Source of the DNA: Flavobacteriaceae bacterium PS02336
GTDB lineage: Bacteria; Bacteroidota; Bacteroidia; Flavobacteriales; Flavobacteriaceae
Reading direction: 5' to 3'
DNA length: 64,000 nt
Assembly: GCA_029960065.1 (NCBI GenBank)
Contig: JASCOF010000005.1
Span: 124,001 to 188,000, forward strand
Below are positions 53,308 to 64,000 of this stretch, piece by piece. The notes below the pieces were generated by a model, which was not told the DNA's origin, made no database searches, and was given only the letters and a program-made list of their open reading frames with translations. The number at the start of each line of letters is the position of its first letter. Position 1 is the first letter of the stretch. The position numbers and the translations under genes are program-made.

Positions 53308-56300
53308 TTAATGAATTATTTTTTTTGTTGAAATATAACCACTCTGAAGATTCGTTTTTACCAGTAAAACCTGATTTTCAGCTTGTAAATTTCGAATCTC
53401 TAAATCATTGCTGTTGACTTTCTTTTTATTGAAAATTTCCTGACCTAGGACATTATAAATAGTTACTTCATTAATTAATTCTTTTGATGAAGAAATACGA
53501 ACTACTTTGTTTTTAACAGAAATTAATATTCCGTCTTTAGTATTTTCGAAATCGTCTACTCCTAATGTTTTATTTGTATAGCTAATGACAAAACGGCTGT
53601 TGAATGATCCCGCAGCAGATGTAAATGTATAATCTGAAGTACGAAGATTGGTAATTTTTCCAGTTGTTTTATCTTCTAAAAATACGTCCTGCCCATCATT
53701 AAAAAATCCGTCAGCGTGATCGATTGTTATGGTGTAACTGCCTTCTGCAGGAAGTTTATAACCTAACGGAACTGAGTCGCTTTTATCAAAAGGAAGTGCA
53801 CGTCCTTGAATGGTTAATTTTTTAGCATTGTTGATGCTGTAGAACTCTGTTGTGCTTCCCATTGTAAGAGCATCAAAATCAGCATCGGTTGTGTTAGTTG
53901 CACCCGTTGCATATCCTAACAAAATCTGCTTAGAAACCCCGCTGTCATTTTTAAGGTTCAACCATAAACGATTTCTCTCTATCTCAGATCCGGCAGTTTT
54001 AAAGAACTCGCTGTTATTGCCATTGCGACGATTATTTCTAAAGTTGATCGTCGTTGCTCCTGCTTTTACCAGAAAACCTTGAGCCGCTGCTATGTTTCCT
54101 TGAAAAGGACCGTTGGATCCTAAACTGTTAACCACTAGATAATCGTCCATATAATAATACATACCATCTGGAAAAAGAATAGGAAGACTTTTATGTTCCC
54201 AGAAGTATAAAGCACCCATTCCAGGATTATCCGTTAAAAACTGAAGTGCATTTACAGCAGAAGGATAAGGATTACCAATTAAATACCATTTTCCACTATC
54301 TACAGTAAGCGTGAAATCTCCATTATTAGGAATACCAGTGAATACTCCAGTAAATTCATCTTTATTAGTTATAGAATGACTTTGAGGAGCCCTGATATTG
54401 TATCCTTTACCCGTAACCATTGCCAAATTCCCATTAGGAACCTCTGCCCATTTTGCTGTATTAGGATCAAAAATAAAATATTTATCTGATAAAGTATTCG
54501 GTGAGAAATGATTCATCTGAAAACCAGACTTCGTAACCGGCATTGACCAGTATGTTGCATCATAACGACGCATTAACACTTTTCTTTCGTAAACAATTTC
54601 TCCCGTGTTTACTGCATTTGTAGTCTGCACTAAACTTGAACCGCTTTTAAAAACCAGTTTTCCATTAGAGGTTACGGAGTTGGTAATGGTTAATGTCACA
54701 CCTTCTTCGATTACAACATCTGGATTTGCTGCACCAGTTGGAACATTAATGACAAGTGAACAAGCTGAAGCACTGGCCGTAAAGGGTTGATTTGCAGCAG
54801 AATTTATTATTGCTCTTCGTGTTAAGTTAGGAGGACCGTTTGACCAGCTTGTACCATTCCATGTGGTTGAAGAATCATCGGCAACGGATACACTTGCTGT
54901 TGCAGGCGAGTTACAGCCTCCGATACTTACTCTAAAAGAATAAGATCCAACTGCTAAATTTGGTACTGTAAAAGTAGATCCTGTACCGGTGTAAAAGTTT
55001 GCGGCCTGTCCTGTTTGTGTTATCTGCCAGGTTCCTGTAGCGGGAAGATTGCTTAAATCGATGCTTCCTAAACTTGGACAAGTTACATTATGAGTAGCAC
55101 TTATTGTAGGCGGTGCTAATAAAATTGTTGTGGTTGGTATATTATTGCTGTAGTCATCTCCAGAAATATCTGTAACAGTATTTAAGGCAGGATCTGTTCC
55201 AGTTACTGTAGCTGAGTTTACTATTCGTCCTGCGGTTACATCAGCTGCGGTAACCGTGTATGTTGCATTTATAGTCGCTGTTTCGCCGACTGCTAAATTC
55301 GAAATAAAATTATTTGAGAATGCAATTCCCACCATCGGATCAGAAACACTGATATTTGTTATAGGAACCTCTCCAGTATTTTTAATATCAAAAGTATAAT
55401 TGATAATATCGCCGGCTTTACCACAAGATGATAATGTGGCTTTTTTGATCATACTTAATTCGGCTAGTTTTAAAGATTTGGTATTTACAGCAATAAATGC
55501 ACAATCTGAATTTCCTGAAAAAACAACAACAAAACGATCAACTTGAGCAGCATTTGCACTAGTGATTCCAAATGAACTTGTCTCTAGACCTAACATTCTA
55601 ATTTCTCTTGTATCTGCTGCAACAAACGAAGGTGCTCCATTGCTGGCTCTAAATAAATCCAAACTATACGTTCCGATTACAGTAACAGATCCGAAATTAA
55701 CTGATATTTCATTACCCACAGTTTGACCAGCAGCATTAACAAACTTAAACACATCTGCTGTTCCGCCAGTTGCTGCAACTTGTGTTACCAATATATCTGG
55801 GATATCATCATTTATTGCCGTTAAATTTAAATTGTTTGTTCCAATTTTGAATTCAGCAGATCCGGGAGCAATATTGGCGATCCCAGTTCCCAAGCTTAAT
55901 CCGTTAATACCATCTGTAAGTCTTGCCGCCAGTTCTGCCCCAGAAGCACTGCTTCCTGCCATTGCGGGAGTTAATATTCTATTACTCAGAGACCCGTCGA
56001 TCATTGACCCCTGTAAAAAGTAGGTGTTTACATCAAAAGCTAAAGTTTGGATTTTTAAAGCTCGATATCGCTGCGCATCGTAAGAAACTAAATTGGTGGT
56101 TAGTTTCGCGTCGTCTACACCAGTTGAAAAAGTTTTACTTCTCCACTCAAATCCCAATAAATTATTCTCACTAGTTGGTTGGTTTCCAGAGAGAGTCGCA
56201 GCATTGGAAGTCCAATATCCAGTTCCTGTTCTGTTCCAATCTGTGTGGATTCTGGTTATGGTATTACTCTGACTTGTAATTTTTAATGATATTAGAAAAA

Positions 56301-56358
56301 ACAGAATGCTAATTTTTCTTAATAAATAACGAAAATTCGATGGCTTTTTTGTGCTCAT
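53308..56358 (-). CDS. Large type IX-secreted surface protein (DUF11-like domain)
   Basis: 1016 residues. A signal peptide is near residues 12-35 (RKISILFFLISLKITSQ). A DUF11-like repeat lies at about 300-390 (GDIINYTFDIKNTGEVPITN, YTVTAADVTAGRIVNSATVT). Then comes an immunoglobulin-like stretch and, from about residue 596, a module shared with the protein encoded at 56491. The final 80 residues (EVTIYNVLGQEIFN to STKKIIH) match a type IX secretion sorting domain, probably the ChiA-like type C rather than type A, as no PNP motif precedes it. Export across the outer membrane and surface attachment or release are inferred. Confidence 0.82.
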   Translation of the reverse strand: MSTKKPSNFRYLLRKISILFFLISLKITSQSNTITRIHTDWNRTGTGYWTSNAATLSGNQPTSENNLLGFEWRSKTFSTGVDDAKLTTNLVSYDAQRYRALKIQTLAFDVNTYFLQGSMIDGSLSNRILTPAMAGSSASGAELAARLTDGINGLSLGTGIANIAPGSAEFKIGTNNLNLTAINDDIPDILVTQVAATGGTADVFKFVNAAGQTVGNEISVNFGSVTVIGTYSLDLFRASNGAPSFVAADTREIRMLGLETSSFGITSANAAQVDRFVVVFSGNSDCAFIAVNTKSLKLAELSMIKKATLSSCGKAGDIINYTFDIKNTGEVPITNISVSDPMVGIAFSNNFISNLAVGETATINATYTVTAADVTAGRIVNSATVTGTDPALNTVTDISGDDYSNNIPTTTILLAPPTISATHNVTCPSLGSIDLSNLPATGTWQITQTGQAANFYTGTGSTFTVPNLAVGSYSFRVSIGGCNSPATASVSVADDSSTTWNGTSWSNGPPNLTRRAIINSAANQPFTASASACSLVINVPTGAANPDVVIEEGVTLTITNSVTSNGKLVFKSGSSLVQTTNAVNTGEIVYERKVLMRRYDATYWSMPVTKSGFQMNHFSPNTLSDKYFIFDPNTAKWAEVPNGNLAMVTGKGYNIRAPQSHSITNKDEFTGVFTGIPNNGDFTLTVDSGKWYLIGNPYPSAVNALQFLTDNPGMGALYFWEHKSLPILFPDGMYYYMDDYLVVNSLGSNGPFQGNIAAAQGFLVKAGATTINFRNNRRNGNNSEFFKTAGSEIERNRLWLNLKNDSGVSKQILLGYATGATNTTDADFDALTMGSTTEFYSINNAKKLTIQGRALPFDKSDSVPLGYKLPAEGSYTITIDHADGFFNDGQDVFLEDKTTGKITNLRTSDYTFTSAAGSFNSRFVISYTNKTLGVDDFENTKDGILISVKNKVVRISSSKELINEVTIYNVLGQEIFNKKKVNSNDLEIRNLQAENQVLLVKTNLQSGYISTKKIIH

Positions 56359-61057: not shown

Positions 61058-61540
61058 TTAGTTTTGTTCGAATTCCTGAACTTTTTCGTAAACCAAATTA
61101 CTTTCGTAACCTCTTCGAAGCATATAGTCACAAAATTTTTTTCGTTTTTTTAAAGTATTAGATTCGGTCAAATTATTCCAAGCTCTTTCGGATAGTTTTT
61201 CGAAAGTTTCAAAATATTCTTCAGACGAAATTTCTTTTAGAGCCAAAGTGATGTTCGTCGATGAAATGTGCCTTGCTTTTAGTTCGCTTGTAATTCTAAT
61301 CTTGCCCCAATGTTTGATTCTGTGTTTGCCTCGTGCAAAACTACAGGCGAAACGGGTCTCATTAAGAAAATTCCCCTCAATGAGCTTTACAATGATAGTA
61401 TCAATTTCTTCAGAACTCATTTTTAAACTGTACAATTTTTCTACAACTTCGTCGTGACAGCGCTCTTGATAAGCACAAAAATGCTCTAGTTTTTGCAGGG
61501 CTTCTTTTATGGTGAAAATGCATTTCGTCGGTTTTTTCAT
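61058..61540 (-). CDS. recX: RecX-family regulatory protein
   Basis: RecX binds RecA filaments and limits recombinase activity. 160 residues, all helical, with three-helix repeats. The core FLNETRFACSFARGKHRIKHW and the following GKIRITSELKARHIS match the RecX consensus (DxxFAxxxvrxr...g..rI..eL). The N-terminus CAYQERCHDEVVEKLYSL is the family start motif. No recA gene is adjacent in this window. It lies between two surface-protein loci, on the minus strand. Confidence 0.92.
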   Translation of the reverse strand: MKKPTKCIFTIKEALQKLEHFCAYQERCHDEVVEKLYSLKMSSEEIDTIIVKLIEGNFLNETRFACSFARGKHRIKHWGKIRITSELKARHISSTNITLALKEISSEEYFETFEKLSERAWNNLTESNTLKKRKKFCDYMLRRGYESNLVYEKVQEFEQN

Positions 61541-61631
61541 TCGTTTTAACGATTAAATGTAGTAATTGTCAATAAGTTGTAAATTAATTCTAAATTTTGT
61601 TAAAATATTTTAAAAAGAAATAAATTATAAC

Positions 61632-61662
61632 CTTGTGTATTAGGCTAATTTAGATATTTTTG
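61632..61662 (+). promoter_or_regulatory. Promoter of the frameshifted surface gene
   Basis: CTTG (61632-61635) and TATTTTTG (61655-61662) are separated by 19 nt, a clean -33/-7 match. The leader to the ATG at 61822 is about 150 nt and contains a short hairpin (ACAATTCTT...AAGAATTAT, near 61741-61768). Confidence 0.7.
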
Positions 61663-61821
61663 TACGAGAATTTAACAGTTTTCTTATTCTGTTCAAAGTC
61701 AGAATTTTAACACTTTAGTTCGAGTTAAAAACTAAAAGCCACAATTCTTCGTATGTAAGAATTATAGCCATTTTTGCTTTTTAGCAACCAAAAACAAATT
61801 TAAAACAAATACCTACTGAAT

Positions 61822-62700
61822 ATGATGAGAAAATTACTTTACTCGTTTTTATTTTTTATTATTTTACATGCTGTTAGTTTTGGGCAGTGTACTTCTTATC
61901 CTACTGGCTTTACAACAAGTCAAATAAGTACGGATCAAACATTTTGTTTTGATAATAATACTAGCATGACCGTTAATAATGTTCCTGCTCAAAGGTATGT
62001 TGTCTTAAACGTAATTAGTGGATTTACTTATACTTTTAGTGTGGGTAATATATGGAATACTACAGGTGGTAGTGATATTGAATATTTAGCTGTTTTTAAT
62101 GATGCGACTGGCAATGCGTTTTTAGCGGGAAGTCCTTCTAATAATAATGGAGCGACAATTACTTGGAAATCAAATTTCTCTGGTAAGATCAGGATTTTGC
62201 TTTTAAGAGGATATTCATGTGCAAGTACTACAAGCACTTCAACAGGAACTATTACAATGACATTAAACTCTGTAGGGAATGATCTTGACGATCAGACTAT
62301 TGCAGGGACCGATGTGTGGAGAGGGCATATATATAATTGGAGCAGTGCGACTTTGCCACCAGGAGGTACATCGCCAGCAGCACCAGCTTCAACAACACCT
62401 TTTACTAGTGCAGAATATGCAGGTTATTATGATATGGGTTCGGAAACAATACCTGTAGGGTATAATTTTGGAGGGGATGGAGCTTGTTTAAATGTTTTTT
62501 CAAATAATACACAACGTGCTAGTATTTACACAGAGACTTTCGCAGTAAGATATAGAATGAAATCGAACAGAGCCGCTGGTTGTTATTTGGTTACAGTTAG
62601 AGGAGATGATGGAGTAAGACTTTATGCAGATAACGTTAGAGTTTTGATGAATGGAAACAACAGTCTACTACAGAATATGCTAATTTATTGGTTTATCTAA
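61822..62700 (+). CDS. N-terminal part of a surface protein with an interrupted PA14-like domain
   Basis: 292 residues to a stop at 62700. A signal peptide ends AVSFGQ. A beta-rich domain follows, then GTDVWRGHIYNWSS and a PA14-like domain (VRYRMKSNRAAGCYLVTVRG, DDGVRLYADNVRV) closely related to that of the 1385-residue protein. The last 16 residues (LMNGNNSLLQNMLIYWFI) look like out-of-frame translation. The domain continues in another frame from 62646, so this is either half of a frameshifted gene or a truncated protein. Confidence 0.8.
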   Translation: MMRKLLYSFLFFIILHAVSFGQCTSYPTGFTTSQISTDQTFCFDNNTSMTVNNVPAQRYVVLNVISGFTYTFSVGNIWNTTGGSDIEYLAVFNDATGNAFLAGSPSNNNGATITWKSNFSGKIRILLLRGYSCASTTSTSTGTITMTLNSVGNDLDDQTIAGTDVWRGHIYNWSSATLPPGGTSPAAPASTTPFTSAEYAGYYDMGSETIPVGYNFGGDGACLNVFSNNTQRASIYTETFAVRYRMKSNRAAGCYLVTVRGDDGVRLYADNVRVLMNGNNSLLQNMLIYWFI

Positions 62701-64000
62701 AAGGCCCCGCAGCAGGTGGAAGTGATTTAATTTTAGATTATTACGAAAATGGTGGAGGAAATCAGGTGAGTTTCAGTATTACTCCATTTGATGCGAACTC
62801 AAATACGATTGTTGCCCCTACACCGTCGTCAGTCTGTAGCAATACGCAGCCAAATACGATTGACGGATCGTCTTATTTATACAACGGTTCATCAGTAAAC
62901 CCTACAATAAAATACCAGTGGCAGAGAGCGACCAATGCTAATGGTCCGTGGTTAGATGTAGCTGGGGAAACAAATGAAGATTACAGACCTGCTGCTATAA
63001 CTACGACAACTCCGGTTGTGAATTATTATCGTAGAGTGGTTTCTGCAGCGGCTTCAAATGCTTCGGCATGTACTTGGAATAGTAATGTGATTAGTATTAC
63101 AACAGGAGCAAGTGGACCAATGACAGTTCCTGTTGCAAATGCAGCTACTGCCGTAACATGTTCTAGTTTTACAGCAAGTTGGAGTTCAATTGCTTCAGCC
63201 TCAAGTTATAGAATAGATGTAGCTACAAGTAATAGCTTTACTACAGGAAGTATTCTTCCAGCATATAATAATTTAGACTTAGGACTGGTTACGTCTTTTA
63301 ATGTAACAGGGCTAAGTACTACGAATACTACCTATTATTATAGAATAAGAGCTTATAATGTATGTGGTAATGCTACGACTGCTCCTTCCACTAGTATTAC
63401 AGTAGGTATGACTTCTCCAACAGTTACAATTGGAGGAACTACTACTGTCTGTCAAAATGCGACCTCGCCTTCAGTAAGCTTTACAAATTCACAAAATTCT
63501 GCAATTACGGTTACCTATAATATAAATGGCGGAACAAATACAACTTTAAATGTACCAGCTAATTCAGTGGTTTACGTTGTTGCTCCAACTACTGCAAGTG
63601 GTACTTTTGCATATAATTTGGTAAGTGCAGTTTATCAGGCTGTGCCAACTTGTTCACAGAATCTTACAGGTTCTGCAACAATCACCGTAAACCCAGTTCA
63701 CACTATAACCGCAGGATCAAATCAAACTGTTTGTCAGAATAATACCATGACAAACATAACGATGACATTAGGCGGAGGAGCAACAGGAGCAACTGTTACG
63801 GGATTACCTGCGGGAGTGACATATTCAGTGAGCGGAACTACTTTGACTATTAGCGGTGCACCAACCGTAAGTGGTCAATTTACTTATAATGTTACTACAA
63901 CTGGAAATTCATGTACTGTGGCAACTACAAGTGGAGTTATCACAGTTGGAGTTGGTAATAATACTATTTCATATTCAAATGGTACATCAGGATCAGTTTG
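62646..64000 (+). pseudogene. Continuation of the surface protein in another frame, open at window end
   Basis: From GAT at 62646 an open frame runs to the right edge with no stop. It continues the PA14-like domain exactly (DEWKQQSTTEYANLLVYLKG, DYYENGGGNQVSFSI), then gives Ig-like and fibronectin-like repeats rich in Thr, Ser and Asn (ASWSSIASASSYRIDV, YYRIRAYNVCGNATTAPS, SNQTVCQNN). One extra T in the run at 62642-62645 would restore one frame with the 61822 gene, reading RVFDEWKQQ. It may be a pseudogene, a phase-variable gene or a base-call error. A type IX sorting domain would be expected beyond the edge. Confidence 0.8.

Follow-up and report, generated by a model that had tools for sequence, protein, structure and literature searches.

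Gene layout at the locus

The source genome comprises 5.82 Mb in 37 contigs, and the stretch of DNA analysed here (the window, 64,000 nucleotides in length) corresponds to positions 124001–188000 of contig C33. Near the right-hand end of the window, separated from the divergent recX gene by an intergenic leader, lies a gene of ~5.1 kb that continues past the window edge (Table 1). As sequenced, the gene has one phase break, at which two coding frames that are out of phase with one another (frames A and B) meet. A preliminary description of this DNA had reported that frame A stops at 62700 and that frame B reads DEWKQQSTTEYANLLVYL from 62646; both statements were confirmed, with exact coordinates, and the run of four T residues that it had placed at the break is correct in length and position. 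Frame B had also been described as open for more than 1.3 kb to the end of the window. It is open, as claimed, and does not end there, extending 2.9 kb beyond the window to a sorting signal. Across L002:2646–6914, in the numbering of the wider contig stretch L002, frame B contains no stop codon, whereas the two alternative frames on that strand contain 96 and 116, and a second lesion was absent over the 1,425 codons downstream of the break. As an observation, the frame break is well beyond chance. A search with the 501 bases around it returned one DNA match in the source genome (40 of 65 candidates scored).

Table 1 Features at the recX-adjacent locus (window coordinates).
Feature	Coordinates	Strand	Details
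recX	61058..61540	-	160 aa, divergent neighbour; Pfam RecX_HTH2 47.4 and RecX_HTH3 32.6 bits, both above cut-offs
Conserved intergenic leader/promoter region	61541..61821	+	71.5–91.8% identity to 21 other genomes
Promoter-like pair TTG-N19-TANNTTTG	61633..61662	+	in 22/22 leaders at -186 to -193
Presumed signal peptide, starts MMRKLLYSFLFFI	61822..61887	+	judged by eye; start conserved at DNA level in leader alignment
Frame A	61822..62700	+	292 aa in the sequenced form; homologous to relatives as far as ~62640; last 19 codons out of phase
PA14-like domain, split between both frames	62400..62790	+	limits approximate, transferred from orthologue's model
Site of phase break	62641..62645	+	two conserved pieces spaced 5 bases here
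Frame B	62640..64000 within window	+	open past window edge to L002:6917 (C33:190917); 1,425 codons
fn3 domain in frame B	63144..63386	+	Pfam fn3 28.1 bits, cut-off 25

The encoded protein and the effect of the break

In addition to the fn3 domain, whose score in a scan of the whole of frame B was 25.0 bits and just equalled the cut-off, frame B gave a sub-threshold match to a SUEL lectin domain and, at its C-terminal end, a T9SS type C sorting domain (NF033708; 52.6 bits against the NCBI cut-off of 40). The presumed signal peptide (frame A) and this sorting domain (frame B) are not on the same polypeptide as sequenced. In the intact orthologue of Flavobacterium anhuiense, a signal peptide (judged by eye) and the sorting domain are present in one frame. 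Like the T9SS substrates with a type C C-terminal domain (NF033708, ChiA type; PMC10202324), frame B carries a C-terminal sorting domain above the cut-off; unlike in those substrates, its sorting domain is separated from the presumed signal peptide by the phase break. No type C wording was found in PMC12618676.

The Pfam PA14 model (PF07691) matched neither of the two separate pieces of the broken gene, and it scored 22.4 bits (cut-off 24) on the intact F. anhuiense orthologue and 40.5 bits on another homologue. When the orthologue's domain was modelled with 33 sequences (mean pLDDT 78.8), a PA14 fold was recovered, an assignment that holds for the orthologue and not for the broken protein. 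The best fold match was PDB 6m8m (Foldseek E 2.9e-7, TM 0.50/0.58), and PA14 domains made up eight of the ten top PDB matches, mostly one Marinomonas protein with different sugars. The best matches are sugar-binding adhesin domains (6m8m, an RTX adhesin; 6x8a, from Marinomonas primoryensis), to which identity is 14–16% with moderate TM-scores; sugar binding is a prediction, and the domain is split in the present gene. The break maps to residues 131–132 of the model, inside a strand (129–135) that follows a GDDG segment. The earlier claim of a one-nucleotide phase break within a PA14-like domain of a surface-type protein is supported, with the PA14 fold recovered for the orthologue. The gene is one for a large, probably sugar-binding surface protein.

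If read through, the gene would give a surface protein of modular build and ~1,700 residues, with a conserved start, a PA14-like domain, an fn3 domain and a type C T9SS sorting signal, presumably exported by Sec and then by T9SS. Translation of the gene as sequenced would end inside the PA14-like domain and yield the 292-residue fragment, which would lack a sorting signal. The earliest possible starts in frame B are TTG at 62688 and GTG at 62766, with the first ATG at 63120; by eye, none of these opens a stretch that resembles a signal peptide, and a surface protein is therefore not expected. As sequenced, the allele should be null, since the break both splits the PA14-like domain and leaves the presumed signal peptide and the sorting signal in separate frames. 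As the promoter-like leader is intact, the fragment could still be expressed and have some use.

Frame continuity and past constraint in relatives

The N-terminal piece was searched for in 150 genomes of the genus, 32 of which matched (source genome included), and its DNA was searched for in 398 genomes of the genus, a set overlapping the 150, with 73 matches (source again included); a collection of named genomes added 10 loci, all Flavobacterium, and on that basis the source genome is taken to belong to this genus. The spacing of the two conserved pieces that flank the break was then compared over 83 loci, 70 rows of which came from outside the source genome. It was divisible by three in all 66 paired rows from other genomes and was 5 in the source genome's copies; the remaining four of the 70 rows were weak, with unpaired pieces. 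Among the stronger rows, with identical ones dropped, the frame ran on without a stop in 33 of 33 distinct homologous spans. The orthologue in F. anhuiense RCM74 is syntenic, lies beside recX and forms a single ORF of 1,617 residues from an ATG. This single-ORF orthologue and the continuous spans show that intact copies exist.

Comparison with F. anhuiense gave dN/dS values of 0.32 for the whole of frame A and, for its last 115 codons, 0.24; beyond the break, the first 75 codons gave 0.08 and the first 338 gave 0.21; the value for the C-terminal 519 codons was 0.18, with synonymous sites near saturation there. These ratios reflect the long past and not the time since the break. Both halves were coding and, on these substitution patterns, under purifying selection in the past, in agreement with the suggestion of the preliminary description that the downstream frame was constrained in the past or only recently broken. 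Given the constraint on both halves and the absence of a second lesion, the break, if real, would be recent.

A recombination joint at the break was also considered, since protein identity to F. anhuiense rises there from 74% (frame A, last 115 codons) to 87% (frame B, first 75). This candidate was dropped because the synonymous difference does not fall across the break (pS 0.49 before, 0.61 after).

Origin of the break

We regard the break as an isolated, non-programmed disruption by one nucleotide, that is, a recent mutation or a sequencing or assembly error as opposed to a designed switch, with a probability of about 0.88. A frame census was made against F. anhuiense, in which 287 frames from one contig of that species were compared; 119 of them were well matched within the first 400 kb of C33. 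With filters loosened until the known break was detected, the broken gene was the only true frame change among these 119 comparable genes (46,568 codons); two junctions were flagged, the second of which, on reading, lay upstream of the start of a small gene. The census in the reverse direction (121 comparable genes) flagged four junctions, which were judged by position only; each falls within 54 residues of the beginning of a stop-to-stop frame. That one gene in 119 is broken gives mild support to a real mutation and counts against a generally poor assembly.

The GeneTack survey expects singleton frameshifts validated by homology to be sequencing errors, not true indels (PMC3711429), an expectation that speaks against a lean towards mutation. 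The present case resembles such singletons in that a frame transition confirmed by homology is absent from relatives; where the survey expects error, we weigh mutation against error at about 55 to 45 and so slightly favour a recent mutation of the sequenced strain, which is a judgement. The frame break is in either event ordinary, amounting to one disrupted or misread gene of adhesin type, and concerns mainly annotators and users of this strain.

The preliminary description had also raised phase variation, in which slipped-strand mispairing at the T run would toggle the surface protein on and off. The gene is of a surface type, its promoter-like region is intact and so is its downstream frame, all of which would suit such a switch. 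The run, though, is only four bases long, and the gene holds 32 T4 runs (break site included), nine T5, three T6 and one T7; counting A or T runs elsewhere in the same gene gives 73 of 4 or 5 bases and five of 6 or 7. No long homopolymer or short tandem repeat of the kind that marks phase-variable genes is present at the break, where a commonplace run is found instead, and PMC2831843 gives 6 bases as the shortest tract known to its authors to switch. With the frame unbroken in 33 of 33 homologous spans as well, switching at this run is very unlikely, and that part of the earlier account was not supported.

Translation of frame B as a separate working gene, by re-initiation near the frame A stop, is highly improbable: frame B does have a TTG (62688) only 13 bases short of the point where frame A ends, but the product would start in the middle of a domain and lack a signal peptide (by eye), and the homologues are single proteins. 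Programmed −1 ribosomal frameshifting that joins both frames is more improbable again, for the two long frames overlap in the required direction but the expected combination of a slippery heptamer with a stimulatory structure, conserved in relatives, was not found, with no canonical X XXY YYZ heptamer from 30 bases upstream of the site through the stop (three weaker look-alikes only), RNA around and after the site that folds worse than shuffles (z +1.33, +0.62 and +1.09) in place of a stable downstream structure, and a frame that is plainly continuous in relatives. The T run of four, the missing heptamer, the lack of stable structure and the absence of a break in relatives are what disfavour both phase variation and programmed frameshifting.

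A conserved leader next to recX

A 360-base stretch that reaches from recX into the signal peptide matched 127 of the 398 genomes at E <= 0.001 (source included), most of the matches being short, weak pieces, and 20 other genomes matched it over about 295 bases or more. These 20 together with F. anhuiense (L171–L190 and L033) form the comparison set for what follows; they were picked by leader similarity, which favours the leader. The long match is single-copy in the source genome and in 20 of 20 others, further matches being at most 68 bases among the first-look candidates scored (40 and 35 per genome); in the source genome, the only other leader match spans 40 bases (40 candidates scored). 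In all 21 other Flavobacterium genomes examined, recX lies directly upstream and is divergent. The source recX itself scored 21.7 bits for RecX_HTH1, below the cut-off of 26.

Within these leader-selected genomes, the median identity of the leader was 80.4% versus 80.5% for recX coding DNA, the leader being the higher in 12 of 21. The first 39–66 bases of the gene are nearly identical across many genomes, and the gene bodies there differ. The promoter-like pair, TTG-N19-TANNTTTG, corresponds to the Bacteroidetes promoter consensus; by itself, the TANNTTTG box is frequent by chance (115 occurrences in the window, 96.9 expected). In 19 of the 22 leaders, a palindrome-like TTAG(G/C)CTAA lies between the two promoter-like boxes. 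The possibility of a structured leader RNA was tested and rejected: none of 23 predicted pairs had changed on both sides, and the leader had no match in Rfam.

Variable ectodomains between constant ends

Of the 21 genes at this site in the comparison set, 18 are complete (1,295–2,266 residues); those of L178 and L179, which run off the stretch, and that of L175 were left out. The L175 gene, in which some bases are ambiguous and which stops early after 1,104 codons, may itself be broken. A T9SS type C domain was found in all 18 complete genes (E <= 0.001) and a PA14 match in six. With the two pieces of the source gene joined and included in the comparison, the C-terminal 300 residues matched in 342 of 342 ordered pairs, with a median identity of 61%. 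The ectodomains, by comparison, reach a mutual coverage of one half or more in 64 of 342 ordered pairs (median coverage 23%). Some ectodomain match was nevertheless seen in 341 of 342 pairs; the middles are therefore mosaics whose modules are related in part, as opposed to sequences with nothing in common. The close relatives L171 and L173 carry ~370–390 extra residues after the signal peptide, ahead of the region that is homologous to the N terminus of the source protein. These alignments point to a modular gene at a fixed position, with the same start and end and widely differing middles between species.

We tentatively suggest, at somewhat less than even odds, that the recX-adjacent position is a dedicated site of T9SS surface-protein diversification. 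One module of promoter, leader and signal peptide and a constant tail would be retained there, ectodomains would be replaced or inserted by recombination, tails would be homogenised via neighbouring paralogues, and the broken gene would be a naturally silenced occupant. The mosaic surface proteins of Porphyromonas gingivalis diversify by domain rearrangement and exchange (PMC5266723). The genes here are like them in encoding surface proteins with diversified domains; they differ in having a fixed, recX-linked 5′ module, and the present comparison is between species, not strains. No description of the recX-linked site was found in a search of the open-access literature judged on titles and abstract openings. 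A site of this kind, constant at its ends, variable in its middle and adjacent to a recombination regulator, would be of value as a natural system in which to study surface change in Bacteroidota, and this modular site is more interesting than the frame break and the part worth following.

Neighbouring type C genes

Two paralogues, at 53308–56358 (- strand) and L002:2646–6917 (+ strand; the broken gene), are ~84% identical over their C-terminal 450 residues and 88% identical in DNA over 1,190 bases. The tail of the broken gene is only 56% identical to that of the F. anhuiense orthologue. The pattern of identities suggests gene conversion, or late duplication, between paralogue tails that are inverted around recX.

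Seven type C sorting domains in the genome score above the cut-off, and five of them lie within ~21 kb (C33:177314–198490); five further matches in the genome are below the cut-off. Breakage was also considered for two of the genes above the cut-off, whose frames are short (294 and 298 codons), and was rejected, as by eye they are small genes with their own starts. Elsewhere, at L134:2176–3351, a gene that by eye is lipoprotein-like, with a thioredoxin-like second half, is apparently interrupted by an in-frame stop between its halves.
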